A stretch of 64,000 nucleotides of DNA, from positions 1 through 64,000 of the forward strand of contig JAFMVE010000032.1 in the NCBI GenBank assembly GCA_025499705.1, read 5' to 3'. Position 1 is the stretch's first letter; every line of letters begins with the position of its first letter. Positions 41,949-44,247 of the stretch are shown here, piece by piece. A program made the position numbers and the translations under genes. Under the pieces are notes generated by a model. That model had not been told where the DNA came from and did not search any database. It saw only the letters and a list, made by a program, of their open reading frames with translations. Origin of the DNA: Carboxylicivirga caseinilyticus (lineage in GTDB: Bacteria > Bacteroidota > Bacteroidia > Bacteroidales > Marinilabiliaceae).

Positions 41949-42512
41949 ATGACAACAGGCTATCAAATAAAAGAGCAGGATGCTCTTTACTTCGTTACAT
42001 TGCAAATAGTAGATTGGGTAGATGTTTTTACAAGGCCGATATACAGAGATATTGTTATTGACAGTCTGAAGTATTGCATGCGTTATAAAGAATTACAGGT
42101 GTTTGCCTATGTTATCATGAGCAATCATGTTCATTTAGTTGTACACAGTATAAAAGCCGATTTAAGTGGTACCATCAGAGACTTTAAAAAATATACCTCG
42201 AAAAAGATAGTCGAAACAATTCAGGTGATTCCTGAAAGCAGACGAGAATGGATGCTTAATCGGTTTTGCTATAATGCAGGTAAACATAGCCGTAACGAGA
42301 GATATCAGGTTTGGACACATGAAAATCATGCGATTCATCTATATTCAAATAAGTTTATTGCTGATAAAATTGAGTACATTCATAACAATCCTGTAAAAGC
42401 TCTGCTGGTCCAACATCCTGAAGATTATTTATATTCCAGTGCTAGAAACTATGCATCACTATCGTCTGTATTAGACATTGAACCATTGATTTTGCCAGTG
42501 ATAACTGTTTAG
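41949..42512 (+). CDS. REP-associated tyrosine transposase (RAYT, Y1_Tnp)
   Basis: A 187-residue HUH-family transposase. The metal-binding histidines are in SNHVHLVVH (about 58-66), and the nucleophilic tyrosine lies in FKKYTSKKI (about 80). These are the hallmarks of the Y1_Tnp domain of IS200/IS605 and RAYT proteins, which cut single-stranded DNA at small hairpins. The gene is single, with no tnpB and no long terminal repeats, but is flanked on both sides by arrays of 17-base palindromes, which is the RAYT arrangement. It is likely domesticated or lightly mobile. Confidence 0.8.
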   Translation: MTTGYQIKEQDALYFVTLQIVDWVDVFTRPIYRDIVIDSLKYCMRYKELQVFAYVIMSNHVHLVVHSIKADLSGTIRDFKKYTSKKIVETIQVIPESRREWMLNRFCYNAGKHSRNERYQVWTHENHAIHLYSNKFIADKIEYIHNNPVKALLVQHPEDYLYSSARNYASLSSVLDIEPLILPVITV

Positions 42513-42537: not shown

Positions 42538-42666
42538 GGTAGTCGCAGACTACCAAATCTATCAAACGAAGTCTCAGACTTCGCTTAGCCAATGTAGAAA
42601 AACGTGAAGTTATGGTTCGGCGAAGTTTGTAACTTCGTCGTATTTAACGGTTAGTTTGCAACTAAC
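42538..42666. repeat. Right REP block downstream of the RAYT gene
   Basis: Four 17-base palindromes with a 7-3-7 layout: GGTAGTCGCAGACTACC (42538-42554), CGAAGTCTCAGACTTCG (42567-42583), CGAAGTTTGTAACTTCG (42621-42637) and GTTAGTTTGCAACTAAC (42650-42666). The last two and the sequence around them repeat the left block at 41698-41770. Confidence 0.75.
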
Positions 42667-42718: not shown

Positions 42719-42792
42719 CTCCCCAGGTTCCCGATACTTCGGGAGAACCTACGACCTACGGATTAATCCCGATGTTTCGGGACCGCTCTAAC
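42719..42792 (-). pseudogene. Decayed tRNA-Asn copy 1, palindromes in anticodon and T loops
   Basis: The minus strand reads GTTAGAGCGG, then a palindrome (TCCCGAAACATCGGGA), then TTAATCCGTAGGTCGTAGG TTC, a second palindrome (TCCCGAAGTATCGGGA), then ACCTGGGGAG. Against intact tRNA-Asn, two 7-base pieces (CGGACTG and AAGTCCT) are each replaced by 16 bases. The acceptor 5' strand and D stem are missing. It begins with the stop codon of the GIY-YIG gene. Confidence 0.75.
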
Positions 42793-43087
42793 GGGTAGCA
42801 TTGATAATAATAGATTGTATAAATTCCTGATCATTGAATTGAGTTATAATCTTGTTAAGAAATACTTTACTCTTTTGATTCTTAATAAAACGTTCAACTC
42901 TGATTGCATCAGAAATATTATTTGAAACTTCGAAGAAACATTTTAATTCCCATGGTTGGTGTTTGGCAGTGTATTTTGATTTATTTGTATAAGAATTGTG
43001 CTCAAGTAGTCTCTTGTGTGGATCCGGAGAGTAGCCGATATAAAATCTATCAGATTTAAGAGAATATAGTATGTATATGAAGTACAT
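42788..43087 (-). CDS. GIY-YIG endonuclease (copy 1)
   Basis: A 99-residue single-domain nuclease of the UPF0213/URI type. The signature YIYILYS..., then YIGYSPD at about 16-22, the arginine in KRLLEHN and the catalytic glutamate in RVERFIKN are all present. It differs from the copy at 43351-43650 at 7 of 99 residues. The stop codon TAG is made by a tRNA-Asn remnant on the same strand (GTTAGAGCGG). Family members are abundant in Bacteroidota, often near tRNA genes, and their true targets are not known. Confidence 0.8.
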   Translation of the reverse strand: MYFIYILYSLKSDRFYIGYSPDPHKRLLEHNSYTNKSKYTAKHQPWELKCFFEVSNNISDAIRVERFIKNQKSKVFLNKIITQFNDQEFIQSIIINATR

Positions 43088-43153
43088 AAAATTAAAGATA
43101 CTTCAATTCTAGTAATTTATATAGTGGAAATGCTGTGTTTGGATTGTTTTATA

Positions 43154-43232
43154 GCTCCTCAGGTTCCCTATTCTTTGGAAGAACCTACGACCTACGGATT
43201 AATCCCGAAACTTCGGGACCGCTCTAACCAAC
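43154..43232 (-). pseudogene. Decayed tRNA-Asn copy 2
   Basis: Minus strand: GTTGGTTAGAGCGG, palindrome TCCCGAAGTTTCGGGA (43203-43218) at the anticodon, TTAATCCGTAGG..., then a worn palindrome (TTCCAAAGAATAGGGA) at the T loop and ACCTGAGGAG. The 5' acceptor is replaced by unrelated sequence. The next item downstream on this strand is GIY-YIG copy 1. Confidence 0.7.
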
Positions 43233-43281
43233 ATTATTGATATAAAACAAAAAAGCCACCCAATAATGGATGACTTCATAG

Positions 43282-43355
43282 CAACTCAGGTTCCCAATAC
43301 TTCGGGAGAAGCTACGACCTACGGATTAATCCCGAAGCTTCGGGACCGCTCTAAC
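43282..43355 (-). pseudogene. Decayed tRNA-Asn copy 3
   Basis: Same plan as the other copies: palindrome TCCCGAAGCTTCGGGA (43330-43345) in the anticodon region and TCCCAATACTTCGGGA (43292-43307) in the T loop. It supplies the stop codon of GIY-YIG copy 2 and is followed by a decayed terminator (43253-43276). Confidence 0.75.
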
Positions 43356-43650
43356 GGGTAGCATTGATAATAATGGATTGTATAAATTCCGGATCATTGA
43401 ATTGAGCTATTAGTTTCTTAAGAAAAACCTTGCTCTTCTGATTCTTAATAAAACGTTCAACTCTGATTGCATCAGAAATATTGTTCGAGACTTCGAAGAA
43501 ACATTTTAACTCCCACGGTTGGTGTTTAGCTGTGTATTTTGATTTATCTCTATAAGAATTGTGCTCTAGAAGTCTCTTGTGTGGATCCGGAGAGTAGCCG
43601 ATATAATATCTATCAGATTTAAGAGAATATAGTATGTATATGAAGTACAT
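43351..43650 (-). CDS. GIY-YIG endonuclease (copy 2)
   Basis: A 99-residue paralogue of the gene at 42788-43087 (92 of 99 residues identical) with the same motifs: YIYILYS, YYIGYSPD, KRLLEHN and RVERFIKN. The seven changes are F15Y, T34R, N35D, N78K, I80L, T82A and Q87P, all conservative or in the tail, so both copies look functional. About 60 upstream bases and the downstream tRNA remnant are also shared, which shows that the duplicated unit is gene plus remnant (563-base period). Confidence 0.8.
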   Translation of the reverse strand: MYFIYILYSLKSDRYYIGYSPDPHKRLLEHNSYRDKSKYTAKHQPWELKCFFEVSNNISDAIRVERFIKNQKSKVFLKKLIAQFNDPEFIQSIIINATR

Positions 43651-43713
43651 AAAATTAAAGATACTTCAATTCTAGTATATTATATAGTATAAATGGTTTA
43701 GATATTATTAGAT

Positions 43714-43785
43714 TCTCAACTATCAGAATCTTCAGAAGAACTTATGACCTAAGAATTAATTTTGTTACTTCAGGACTAAACATGC
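43714..43785 (-). pseudogene. Decayed tRNA-Asn copy 4 (very worn)
   Basis: The order AGAAC-TTATGACCTAAG-AATTAA-TTTTGTTACTTCAGGAC-TAAAC (plus strand, 43735-43785) follows the other copies with many substitutions. It is the oldest copy by eye. Confidence 0.5.
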
Positions 43786-43827
43786 GATAAGACAAAAAAT
43801 GGTGTTTAAATTAGAAAGCTTCATAGC

Positions 43828-43904
43828 ACCTCAGGTTTCCGATTCATTGGGAGAAGCTACGACCTACGGATTAATCCCGAAACTTTGGGACCGCTCTAAC
43901 CAAC
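43828..43904 (-). pseudogene. Decayed tRNA-Asn copy 5
   Basis: Minus strand: GTTGGTTAGAGCGG, palindrome TCCCAAAGTTTCGGGA (43875-43890), TTAATCCGTAGG..., worn palindrome TCCCAATGAATCGGAA (43837-43852), ACCTGAGGTG. No 5' acceptor. Confidence 0.7.
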
Positions 43905-43919
43905 ATTATTGATATAAAA

Positions 43920-43949
43920 CAAAAAAGCCACCCAAAAATGGATGGCTTC
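43920..43949 (-). terminator. Terminator of tRNA-Asn
   Basis: AAGCCATCC and GGGTGGCTT on the minus strand with a following U-run (43925-43948). Confidence 0.8.
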
Positions 43950-43953
43950 TCAG

Positions 43954-44027
43954 CTCCCCAGGTAGGACTTGAACCTACGACCTACGGATTAACAGTCCGC
44001 CGCTCTAACCAACTGAGCTACTAGGGA
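43954..44027 (-). tRNA. tRNA-Asn (anticodon GTT), copy A
   Basis: Acceptor arms TCCCTAG / CTGGGGA, D arm GCTC-AGTTGGTTA-GAGC, anticodon stem GCGGA / TCCGT with loop CTGTTAA (anticodon GTT), T arm GTAGG-TTCAAGT-CCTAC, discriminator G. CCA not encoded. The sequence is the same as the copy at 44174-44247. Confidence 0.95.
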
Positions 44028-44049
44028 ATTTTTACCTTTTACTCTGGAT

Positions 44050-44131
44050 AGATGTCTAAGACTTGCGGATTAATCCCGATCGTTCGGGACCGCTCTAACC
44101 TCCCGATAGTTATCGGGATGAGTACCAGGGA
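44050..44131 (-). pseudogene. Decayed tRNA-Asn copy 6, with D-loop and anticodon-loop palindromes
   Basis: Minus strand: TCCCTGGTACTCA, an 18-base palindrome TCCCGATAACTATCGGGA (44101-44118), GGTTAGAGCGG, a 16-base palindrome TCCCGAACGATCGGGA (44074-44089), TTAATCCG. The first lies inside the D loop just before the GG, the second in the anticodon loop. The 3' half is eroded. It is the only copy that keeps the 5' acceptor strand, and it lies between the two intact genes. Confidence 0.75.
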
Positions 44132-44173
44132 ATCAAATATTTTTTATAAGAGCTTCGTCTAACTTTTATGAAG

Positions 44174-44247
44174 CTCCCCAGGTAGGACTTGAACCTACGA
44201 CCTACGGATTAACAGTCCGCCGCTCTAACCAACTGAGCTACTAGGGA
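44174..44247 (-). tRNA. tRNA-Asn (anticodon GTT), copy B
   Basis: Same cloverleaf as the gene at 43954-44027, with the same anticodon loop CTGTTAA and acceptor TCCCTAG / CTGGGGA. It has no recognisable terminator of the kind found after copy A. Both copies look functional. Confidence 0.95.

Follow-up and report, generated by a model that had tools for sequence, protein, structure and literature searches.

The known system closest to the locus reported here is SegB, a GIY-YIG homing endonuclease that T-even phages encode as a free-standing gene (PMC13096335, PMC2988022). As set out in the sections of the SegB account considered here, the gene adjoins tRNA genes, the enzyme cuts within tRNA genes, and its activity is required for tandem repeats of tRNA and nuclease genes that arise via homologous recombination (PMC13096335). 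We read the reported SegB motif, RAWTSGAAC, as complementary to the T loop of tRNAs. The element described here resembles SegB in having a GIY-YIG catalytic domain with its active-site residues and in lying next to tRNA genes. Unlike SegB, which is a phage gene, it lies in a chromosomal array, and neither chromosomal arrays nor palindromes figure in those sections of the SegB account (PMC13096335). It differs further in that its lineages group by tRNA species and that the linked tRNA copies contain palindromes; at 99 aa and without an evident DNA-binding domain, the protein is also unlike the phage homing endonucleases that have been studied.

Integrative elements use tRNA genes as attachment sites, with one copy left whole and a partial copy at the other end. 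The array is similar in having one whole tRNA copy and a partial copy that marks the other end. It is dissimilar in that no integrase was seen in it, its unit is a few hundred bp long with one small gene, and the arms of its partial copies are replaced by palindromes. REP elements, short palindromes scattered through genomes, are believed to rely on an enzyme linked to them, the RAYT transposase; in contrast, the enzyme linked to the palindromes here is a GIY-YIG nuclease. The Rickettsia palindromic elements and the mitochondrial double-hairpin elements are short palindromes in or near tRNA genes, and we know of no tie of either to a nuclease lineage and no fixed replacement of an anticodon arm by them. 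Group I introns occupy the anticodon loops of tRNA genes, and some contain GIY-YIG endonucleases. The present elements are like them in their enzyme and in the 5' break at the anticodon arm of some Arg arrays (loci L341 and L301); no group I intron was matched by Rfam in the window. Among the open-licence papers searched, none deals, by its title or abstract opening, with GIY-YIG genes flanked by tRNA repeats on a chromosome or with tRNAs that contain these palindromes.

The window is the whole 64,000-nt stretch of Carboxylicivirga caseinilyticus DNA that was analysed. Its tRNA-Asn locus is probably (roughly 55%) a selfish element of a single gene, repeated in tandem, that lives on tRNA genes and works in a SegB-like way; related bacteria show the same layout at tRNA genes of many kinds, which suggests that the element belongs to a little-known class. 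ARAGORN, the sequence and alignment bear out the original prediction that tRNA-Asn is present as two intact genes with six broken copies on the same strand, the minus strand. The first intact gene of the array (GTT) lies at 44173-44247 (ARAGORN; Rfam RF00005, 73 bits) and the second (GTT) at 43953-44027 (ARAGORN and Rfam). The broken copies lie at 44050-44131 (without a T arm; recognised by sequence, pattern and repeat family D3), 43828-43904 (sequence, pattern and repeats), 43714-43785 (the most decayed; sequence and alignment), 43282-43355 (sequence, pattern, alignment and repeats), 43154-43232 (sequence, pattern and repeats) and 42719-42792 (sequence, pattern, alignment and repeats). None of the six is called by ARAGORN or matched by the Rfam tRNA model. 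They are not valid tRNAs: at E ≤5, Rfam scores nothing in the window as tRNA other than the two intact genes. Two minus-strand ORFs of 99 aa, absent from the original prediction, lie at 43351-43650 and 42788-43087 and match the GIY-YIG domain (Pfam PF01541, E 5.1e-14 and 8.6e-14, respectively). Both stop codons fall inside broken tRNA copies, those at 43282-43355 and 42719-42792, which are joined to the 3' ends of the ORFs.

The palindrome TCCCGA-N4-TCGGGA at the anticodon and T arms of the broken copies is real by pattern scan and by sequence, and it replaces the 7-mers CGGACTG (anticodon arm) and AAGTCCT (T arm), as had been stated. At the anticodon site it is perfect in four copies (42767-42782, 43203-43218, 43330-43345 and 44074-44089) and has one mismatch in a fifth (43875-43890). 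At the T arm it is perfect at 42729-42744, with one mismatch at 43292-43307 and two at 43837-43852; by eye, the copies at 43154 (∼43165-43180) and 43714 have a degenerate version and the copy at 44050 has none. The copy at 43714 has, also by eye, lost pairing at both sites. The predicted D-loop palindrome in the 44050 copy is present and is 18 nt long (44101-44118), with six central bases. With up to two mismatches allowed, the window holds nine matches, eight of them within the array, against 0.87 (sd 0.90, largest 3) in window shuffles. The 5.65-Mb genome has seven exact N4 sites, five of which are inside the 1.5-kb array; under the N4-6 pattern there are 16 sites genome-wide and, by our own count, six in the array. 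Differences in the central four bases had been taken to mean that the palindromes are not simple copies of one another. That argument did not hold up: the array is tandemly duplicated (a 300-nt repeat at 563 bp spacing and a 153-nt repeat present four times), and the recognisable anticodon palindromes occupy the same position in each copy, for which one or two events would be enough. A separate insertion for each anticodon palindrome is rejected by the shared coordinates and the nested duplications; most copies in the array are explained by duplication, and the central bases are simply more variable than the stems.

The nuclease protein is under purifying selection, with a dN/dS of 0.087 between the two ORFs of the window. 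The GIY-YIG match covers residues 1-74 of the 99 aa, with an overlapping T5orf172 match, and Pfam found no separate DNA-binding domain in the protein. Both ORFs fall below the cut-off of every NCBIfam model, and a tblastn search with one of the two proteins returned no phage record at E 1e-5. A protein search with a tRNA-associated protein from another locus (L047) as query placed the family in 119 of the 295 genomes of the order. Loci drawn from among the matches listed (30 returned and 92 other listed places, with near neighbours within one cluster skipped) gave a set of 122 that was not selected by palindrome, with 136 distinct 3' flanks in 112 loci. The catalytic Y, YxG, R, H and E are conserved in 98-100% of these 122 sequences.

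The GIY genes lie between tRNA repeats in one order: an intact tRNA copy is usually upstream, and a broken downstream copy starts at or inside the 3' end of the ORF. Against a tRNA library cleared of 24 palindrome-bearing entries, same-strand tRNA-derived sequence was found in 93 of 136 downstream flanks (within 170 nt) and 99 of 115 upstream flanks (within 180 nt), with no opposite-strand match on either side. At least one side was flanked in 107 of 115 genes, both sides in 73 and neither side in eight. The uncleaned library gave 97 downstream, 99 upstream, 107 on either side and 74 on both, with six and eight opposite-strand matches, and no match in the reversed or shuffled control. A bare stem criterion was passed in 73/97 cases versus 9/97 when shuffled, which is indicative only, since 89 of the 256 library entries also pass. 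A direct repeat joins the two flanks of the GIY gene in 98/115, and ARAGORN places a tRNA within 1200 nt on the same strand for 107/136 and on the opposite strand for 1/136. In a control family, 23S_rRNA_IVP (30 loci), tRNA sequence was present at none of 29 downstream and none of 30 upstream flanks; the arrangement expected of a 23S rRNA IVS-type passenger, an IVP gene between tRNA repeats, was not found.

The GIY lineages largely track the tRNA species beside them. On the tree of 122 tips, the tRNA labels need 50 changes compared with 83.1 when shuffled (none of 200 shuffles as low). The tree has an Asn clade of 19 rows, 14 of them labelled Asn (support 100/96), a Val clade of 23 rows and an Arg clade of 12. 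The Asn clade leaves out four of the 18 GIYs labelled Asn, and a few labels (Leu, SeC and Cys) are wrong because six ARAGORN calls in the sampled loci are palindrome-bearing copies. This agreement between clade and tRNA could come mostly from vertical inheritance. Empty sites occur: in two genomes of the same family (G029 and G238), the site consists of pfkB and only two intact tRNA-Asn genes, with neither a GIY gene detected by HMM nor a palindrome of the TCCCG or TCCG type within the 2.5-3.1 kb examined, and the same pfkB/tRNA-Asn site is filled in G000 and G143. The GIY gene thus lies beside a tRNA and is missing from some homologous sites, as would a SegB-like gene, with the tRNA as its putative target.

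From these layouts we infer how cleavage, homing and the palindrome may work together. The single-domain GIY-YIG gene sits, in the tRNA direction, between direct repeats of a tRNA gene, and its protein would cut in or near its own tRNA gene. Repair by recombination would then copy the GIY gene into empty alleles and, by analogy with phage SegB, might amplify the unit of nuclease and tRNA copy in tandem, while the intact tRNA gene would keep the host alive. A palindrome in the linked copies may remove the nuclease target, which would let the array escape recutting, and may abolish tRNA function in those copies, such that broken tRNAs are not made. Under this scheme the array's own intact tRNA genes would be expected to be cut too, unless the target extends into the DNA beside them. 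A target can be abolished by any mutation, and immunity therefore leaves the choice of a palindrome as the replacement unexplained; we know of no explanation for the replacement of an anticodon arm by a palindrome at fixed coordinates.

The palindromes were expected to target tRNA loops by repeated entry. Their placement in arms and loops is indeed seen in many genomes and several tRNA species, but most mapped cases replace DNA rather than merely interrupt it. Among 97 palindromes with both flanks mapped, the commonest class (28, from 18 loci) replaces exactly the 17-nt anticodon arm; 24 (nine loci) replace the tRNA-Asn site, nine a Met site and seven a Val/Gly site, and five are Arg D-loop insertions without loss. 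The coordinates recur within tRNA species and lineage, and 7, 10 or 17 nt are usually replaced. Repeated entry is favoured by the dispersed copies and by L341, where one tRNA-Arg copy has CCTGCCTGCCGGCAGGCAGG inserted in its D loop with nothing lost and an uninterrupted copy lies alongside; entry copy by copy does not describe the duplicated array of the window. A broader proposal is a new class of minimal mobile element in which each small GIY-YIG lineage colonises one tRNA species and has its own palindrome, which replaces the anticodon, D or T arm in linked copies. Nuclease and palindrome would be functionally paired, the palindrome serving as a site for binding, a mark of immunity or the unit that is mobilised, and this pairing would also explain much of the dispersed palindrome load of Bacteroidota. 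The proposal is advanced here as a tentative possibility.

The palindrome may instead be a mobile repeat unconnected with the GIY gene, one that enters or replaces hairpin tips and finds good targets in duplicated, unselected tRNA copies, a reading that we consider rather doubtful. Same-family palindromes are dispersed elsewhere in the genomes, dozens of them outside tRNAs in some, which makes such mobility possible. The TCCCGA-N4-6-TCGGGA pattern has 2205 sites in the 295 genomes, tRNA sites included; the reversed-pattern control gave none in any genome, though reversed palindromes are themselves rare. Exclusivity to tRNAs is rejected, since 219 of the 295 genomes have at least one site and only three of 30 returned loci (L040-L069) are in tRNA arrays. 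The flanks of 41 dispersed sites pair with each other at 3.22/8 positions versus 2.21/8 (sd 0.20) when shuffled, and the lossless insertion in L341 points the same way. Genomes with a GIY have a median of seven TCCCGA sites versus one without (p 3e-21; partial rank r 0.50 given genome size), but within families the contrast is upward in 18 and downward in 14 (p 0.30), and the order-wide association may therefore reflect shared ancestry; the idea that GIY genes drive the palindromes genome-wide is thereby weakened. One genome (G191) is rich in palindromes and has no GIY match. Against an unconnected repeat stand the recurrence of coordinates by tRNA species and lineage, with DNA usually replaced, and the fit of palindrome type to the GIY tree: four changes versus a shuffled mean of 13.3 (minimum 10), for the 64 tips with one of three types, the 41 palindrome-free tips and the 17 of other types being excluded. 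Within single genomes (G119, G130 and G217), arrays of different GIY clades have different palindrome types; a clade-B1 GIY with a TCCCGA palindrome (L337) is an exception to the rule. TCCGCC-type sites rise with GIY within families (19 against 8, p 0.026) and have a median of 23 in clade-B1 genomes (n 13) versus 0 in clade-A-only genomes (n 56; p 5e-7). B1 and A were set by hand from the tree, B1 being a 15-row subclade (12 genomes) plus G168, whose GIY adjoins the Arg clade, and genomes with unsampled GIYs were left unlabelled. B1 genomes without a sampled clade-A GIY have a median of 12 TCCCGA sites (n 6), and TCCCGA is thus not specific to clade A.

It is improbable that the palindrome preserves an anticodon-arm-like hairpin in a functional tRNA-like RNA, whether that RNA signals processing, stabilises the nuclease mRNA or acts as a decoy for toxins that cut tRNAs. 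The commonest replacement does exchange an exact 17-nt arm for a hairpin of similar length, and in 12 tRNA-Asn copies the stems are 94.4% paired (shuffled 86.8%), with one pair altered on both sides in 3 of 12. These 12 come from GIY-search loci only, a larger set of 22 having included palindrome-found loci. The other five of the six stem pairs show no covariation, which means that the sequence is conserved and not structure alone; structure-only conservation is rejected. The 5' part of the tRNA is missing from many copies, Rfam tRNA score in the window is limited to the two intact genes, and one window copy has, by eye, lost both hairpins. Decay alone, with unequal crossing-over duplicating tRNAs, template switching at replication hairpins making palindromes and the GIY gene as an incidental passenger, is likewise unlikely. 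It accords with the nested duplications of the window array and with L194, a decayed palindrome-bearing tRNA array without a GIY match in the stretch examined. It accounts poorly for tRNA flanks at 107 of 115 GIY genes against none in the control family, for the same palindrome sequences recurring across many genomes and for purifying selection on the nuclease.

If the selfish-element reading is correct, the tRNA genes of a large bacterial group host many tiny nuclease elements, easily overlooked: both ORFs of the window fall below NCBIfam cut-offs and its broken copies are invisible to ARAGORN and the Rfam tRNA model; ARAGORN does call six palindrome-bearing copies in other sampled loci. The elements would be a chromosomal counterpart of tRNA-gene amplification by phage SegB and would explain some tandem tRNA arrays, and nuclease lineages sorted by tRNA target would form a natural series for the study of recognition by single-domain GIY-YIG enzymes. 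In tRNA-Asn cases from Verrucomicrobiota and Chloroflexota, the palindrome lies at the same place as in Bacteroidota, and in a quick tree the nearest relatives of their GIYs are not members of the Bacteroidota Asn clade; its position may hence depend on the tRNA rather than on the nuclease. A RAYT gene (NF047646) lies at 41949-42512, ∼0.2 kb from the window array. The repeats adjacent to it, GTCNCAGAC at 42542 and 42571, a pattern that alone is not above chance, differ from the palindromes of the array.

The tRNA-Asn array of the window lies on the minus strand and begins with an intact gene (44247-44173), followed by a broken copy (44131-44050), a second intact gene (44027-43953) and two further broken copies (43904-43828 and 43785-43714). 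Each of two GIY-YIG ORFs then runs into the next broken copy. The first ORF (43650-43351) overlaps with its end the copy at 43355-43282, which is followed by another at 43232-43154, and the second (43087-42788) overlaps the copy at 42792-42719. The original prediction held that TCCCGA-N4-TCGGGA palindromes replace CGGACTG at the anticodon site and AAGTCCT in the T arm. This is borne out by eight array matches against 0.87 expected in the window, far above chance. In standard tRNA numbering the replaced positions are 28-34 and 57-63, and both 7-mers contain GGACT or its complement. A whole-genome scan places five of the seven exact N4 palindromes inside the array. The five anticodon palindromes that can still be recognised need not represent five events, since tandem duplications are nested here: a 300-nt repeat recurs at 563-bp spacing, and another of 153 nt is present four times.

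Arrays of the same kind, with palindromes and a GIY-YIG gene, occur in three genomes of the same order; judged by eye, the neighbouring gene is pfkB-like in G143 and G130, as in the window, and recR-like in G096. G029 and G238, which belong to the window's family, carry a pfkB-like gene with two intact tandem tRNA-Asn genes, and the fetched stretches contain neither GIY by HMM nor palindromes of the two main types. This arrangement is likely the earlier state of the window locus.

Sampling without palindrome bias relied on a protein search, which detected the GIY family in 119 of 295 Bacteroidales genomes, from which 122 loci were fetched. With a cleaned tRNA library, tRNA-derived sequence on the same strand was present in 93 of 136 downstream and 99 of 115 upstream flanks, and on at least one side in 107 of 115; opposite-strand matches numbered 0 downstream and 0 upstream. 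At 400-1000 nt from GIY, matches to the first library ranged from 0/94 to 25/105. A direct repeat joins both flanks in 98 of 115 cases. The control family 23S_rRNA_IVP is present in 85 of the 119 genomes, and flanks of 30 control loci among the matches listed had no tRNA sequence (0/29 and 0/30). Because the flank counts are high and the control flanks zero, the sampled GIY-YIG family is a neighbour of tRNA genes, codirectional with the tRNA.

The GIY proteins also cluster strongly by tRNA species, and those at Asn, Val and Arg genes form clades. On a tree of 122 domains, tRNA species require 50 changes versus 83.1 when shuffled, a few labels deriving from palindrome-bearing copies called tRNA by ARAGORN; the few alignment columns leave many forks open. 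Active-site residues are almost invariant. Between the two window ORFs there are 16 synonymous and 7 nonsynonymous differences (dN/dS 0.087), and pooled pN/pS is 0.17 over nineteen tandem pairs, not all independent. The protein is kept after duplication.

Palindrome coordinates repeat by tRNA and lineage among 97 palindromes from 55 loci, both flanks of which were mapped onto the locus's own called tRNA. The exact 17-nt anticodon arm is replaced by 28 of them. In tRNA-Asn, 16 replace positions 25-34 and eight positions 28-34; nine replace 38-47 in tRNA-Met and seven 23-32 in tRNA-Val(GAC) or Gly. In tRNA-Arg, five are inserted into the D loop with no tRNA bases lost; one of these, at locus L341, adjoins an uninterrupted copy. 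The other 24 are scattered over rarer sites, a few being probable mapping errors. Between tRNA-Asn flanks in the GIY-search loci, 46 sequences comprise 19 intact tRNAs and 27 hairpins (at least 5/6 outer pairs), with no third class. At locus L365 of G238 (about 802-1900), a TCCCGT/ACGGGA hairpin replaces the anticodon arm in a decayed tRNA-Thr(TGT) array, and no GIY gene was noticed by eye. Locus L050 of genome G279 holds a tRNA-Pro(TGG) array (1490-2330 and 2472-2816), four copies of which have TCCCGATGCTAATCGGGA in their anticodon arm, with a 23S_rRNA_IVP (PF05635) gene nearby; no GIY was found within the 3-kb locus.

Palindrome types extend beyond TCCCGA to TCCCGC, TCCGCC, TCCGTC, CCTGCC and others, and 46 of 76 distinct palindromes start with TCC and end with GGA. 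Type tracks the GIY tree, needing 4 changes on 64 tips versus 13.3 shuffled; when each locus is reduced to a single tip, 4 changes on 52 tips compare with 11.5. In 12 tRNA-Asn copies stem pairing is 94.4% versus 86.8% shuffled, and since five of six stem pairs fail to covary, the palindrome sequence itself is conserved.

Palindromes are also dispersed: TCCCGA-N4-6-TCGGGA has 2205 sites in the 295 genomes, and TCCGCC-N2-5-GGCGGA occurs in 134. TCCGCC sites have a median of 23 in genomes with GIY of clade B1, a hand-set tree group (n=13), versus 0 in genomes with clade A only (n=56). TCCCGA load rises with GIY presence overall, though not significantly within families. Such figures are compatible with a pairing of nuclease and palindrome, or else with a shared ancestry of the two loads. 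Genome G191 (loci L029, L036, L038) carries 71 TCCCGA and 184 TCCGCC sites, some away from tRNAs and extended by TTAATCC-type arms; the protein search of the 295 genomes gave no GIY match there, which does not fit a simple model of GIY driving palindromes. G143 has 119 TCCCGA palindromes (e.g. L079, L083, L084), and several of those read cap longer, varied inverted repeats.

Beside the observed anatomy, tRNA association, clustering, selection and empty sites, the most likely mechanism is one in which the GIY-YIG protein would cut inside the tRNA gene and home into empty alleles, and recombination would amplify the array in tandem. The palindrome would most likely remove the target, and tRNA function, in linked copies. 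SegB of T6 phage acts in this way: it cuts within tRNA genes, its catalytic activity is required for tandem tRNA-Tyr and segB repeats, and the amplification needs recombination proteins (PMC13096335). The SegB motif is RAWTSGAAC; on the other strand this reads GTTCSAWTY, which would correspond to the tRNA T loop. The window GIY would work like a free-standing GIY-YIG homing endonuclease, but is not classed there because no separate DNA-binding domain was found in the protein and cleavage is only predicted. A tRNA intron identity was rejected, the window having no Rfam intron match.

Beyond the order, a pattern scan of named genomes for a palindrome directly followed by a variable loop and a T arm matched at least 118 stretches. 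By record titles, Bacteroidota make up most of the matches listed, the remainder coming from Verrucomicrobiota, Acidobacteriota, Ignavibacteriota, Chloroflexota and others. Of the 146 remnants among the matches listed, 63 have a GIY match that ends no more than 200 bp upstream, and the same holds for 59 of the 123 listed whose upstream sequence is 350 bp or longer. About half of those listed have no such match, and one locus (L194) has eight copies at 86-bp spacing and no GIY match in the fetched stretch. The tRNA-Asn palindrome position in L132, L140, L165 and L179 (Verrucomicrobiota) and L124 (Chloroflexota) is the same as in Bacteroidota. For L132, L140, L179 and L124, a quick tree puts the nearest relatives of the GIY proteins outside the Bacteroidota Asn clade.

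A REP-associated tyrosine transposase (RAYT; NF047646, E 1.3e-27) lies at 41949-42512 on the plus strand, ∼0.2 kb from the window array; a RAYT/REP link to the array is conjectural. The GTCNCAGAC repeats next to the transposase gene, at 42542 and 42571, and the 76-nt direct repeat on either side of it (41696/42604) do not resemble the array's TCCCGA palindromes.
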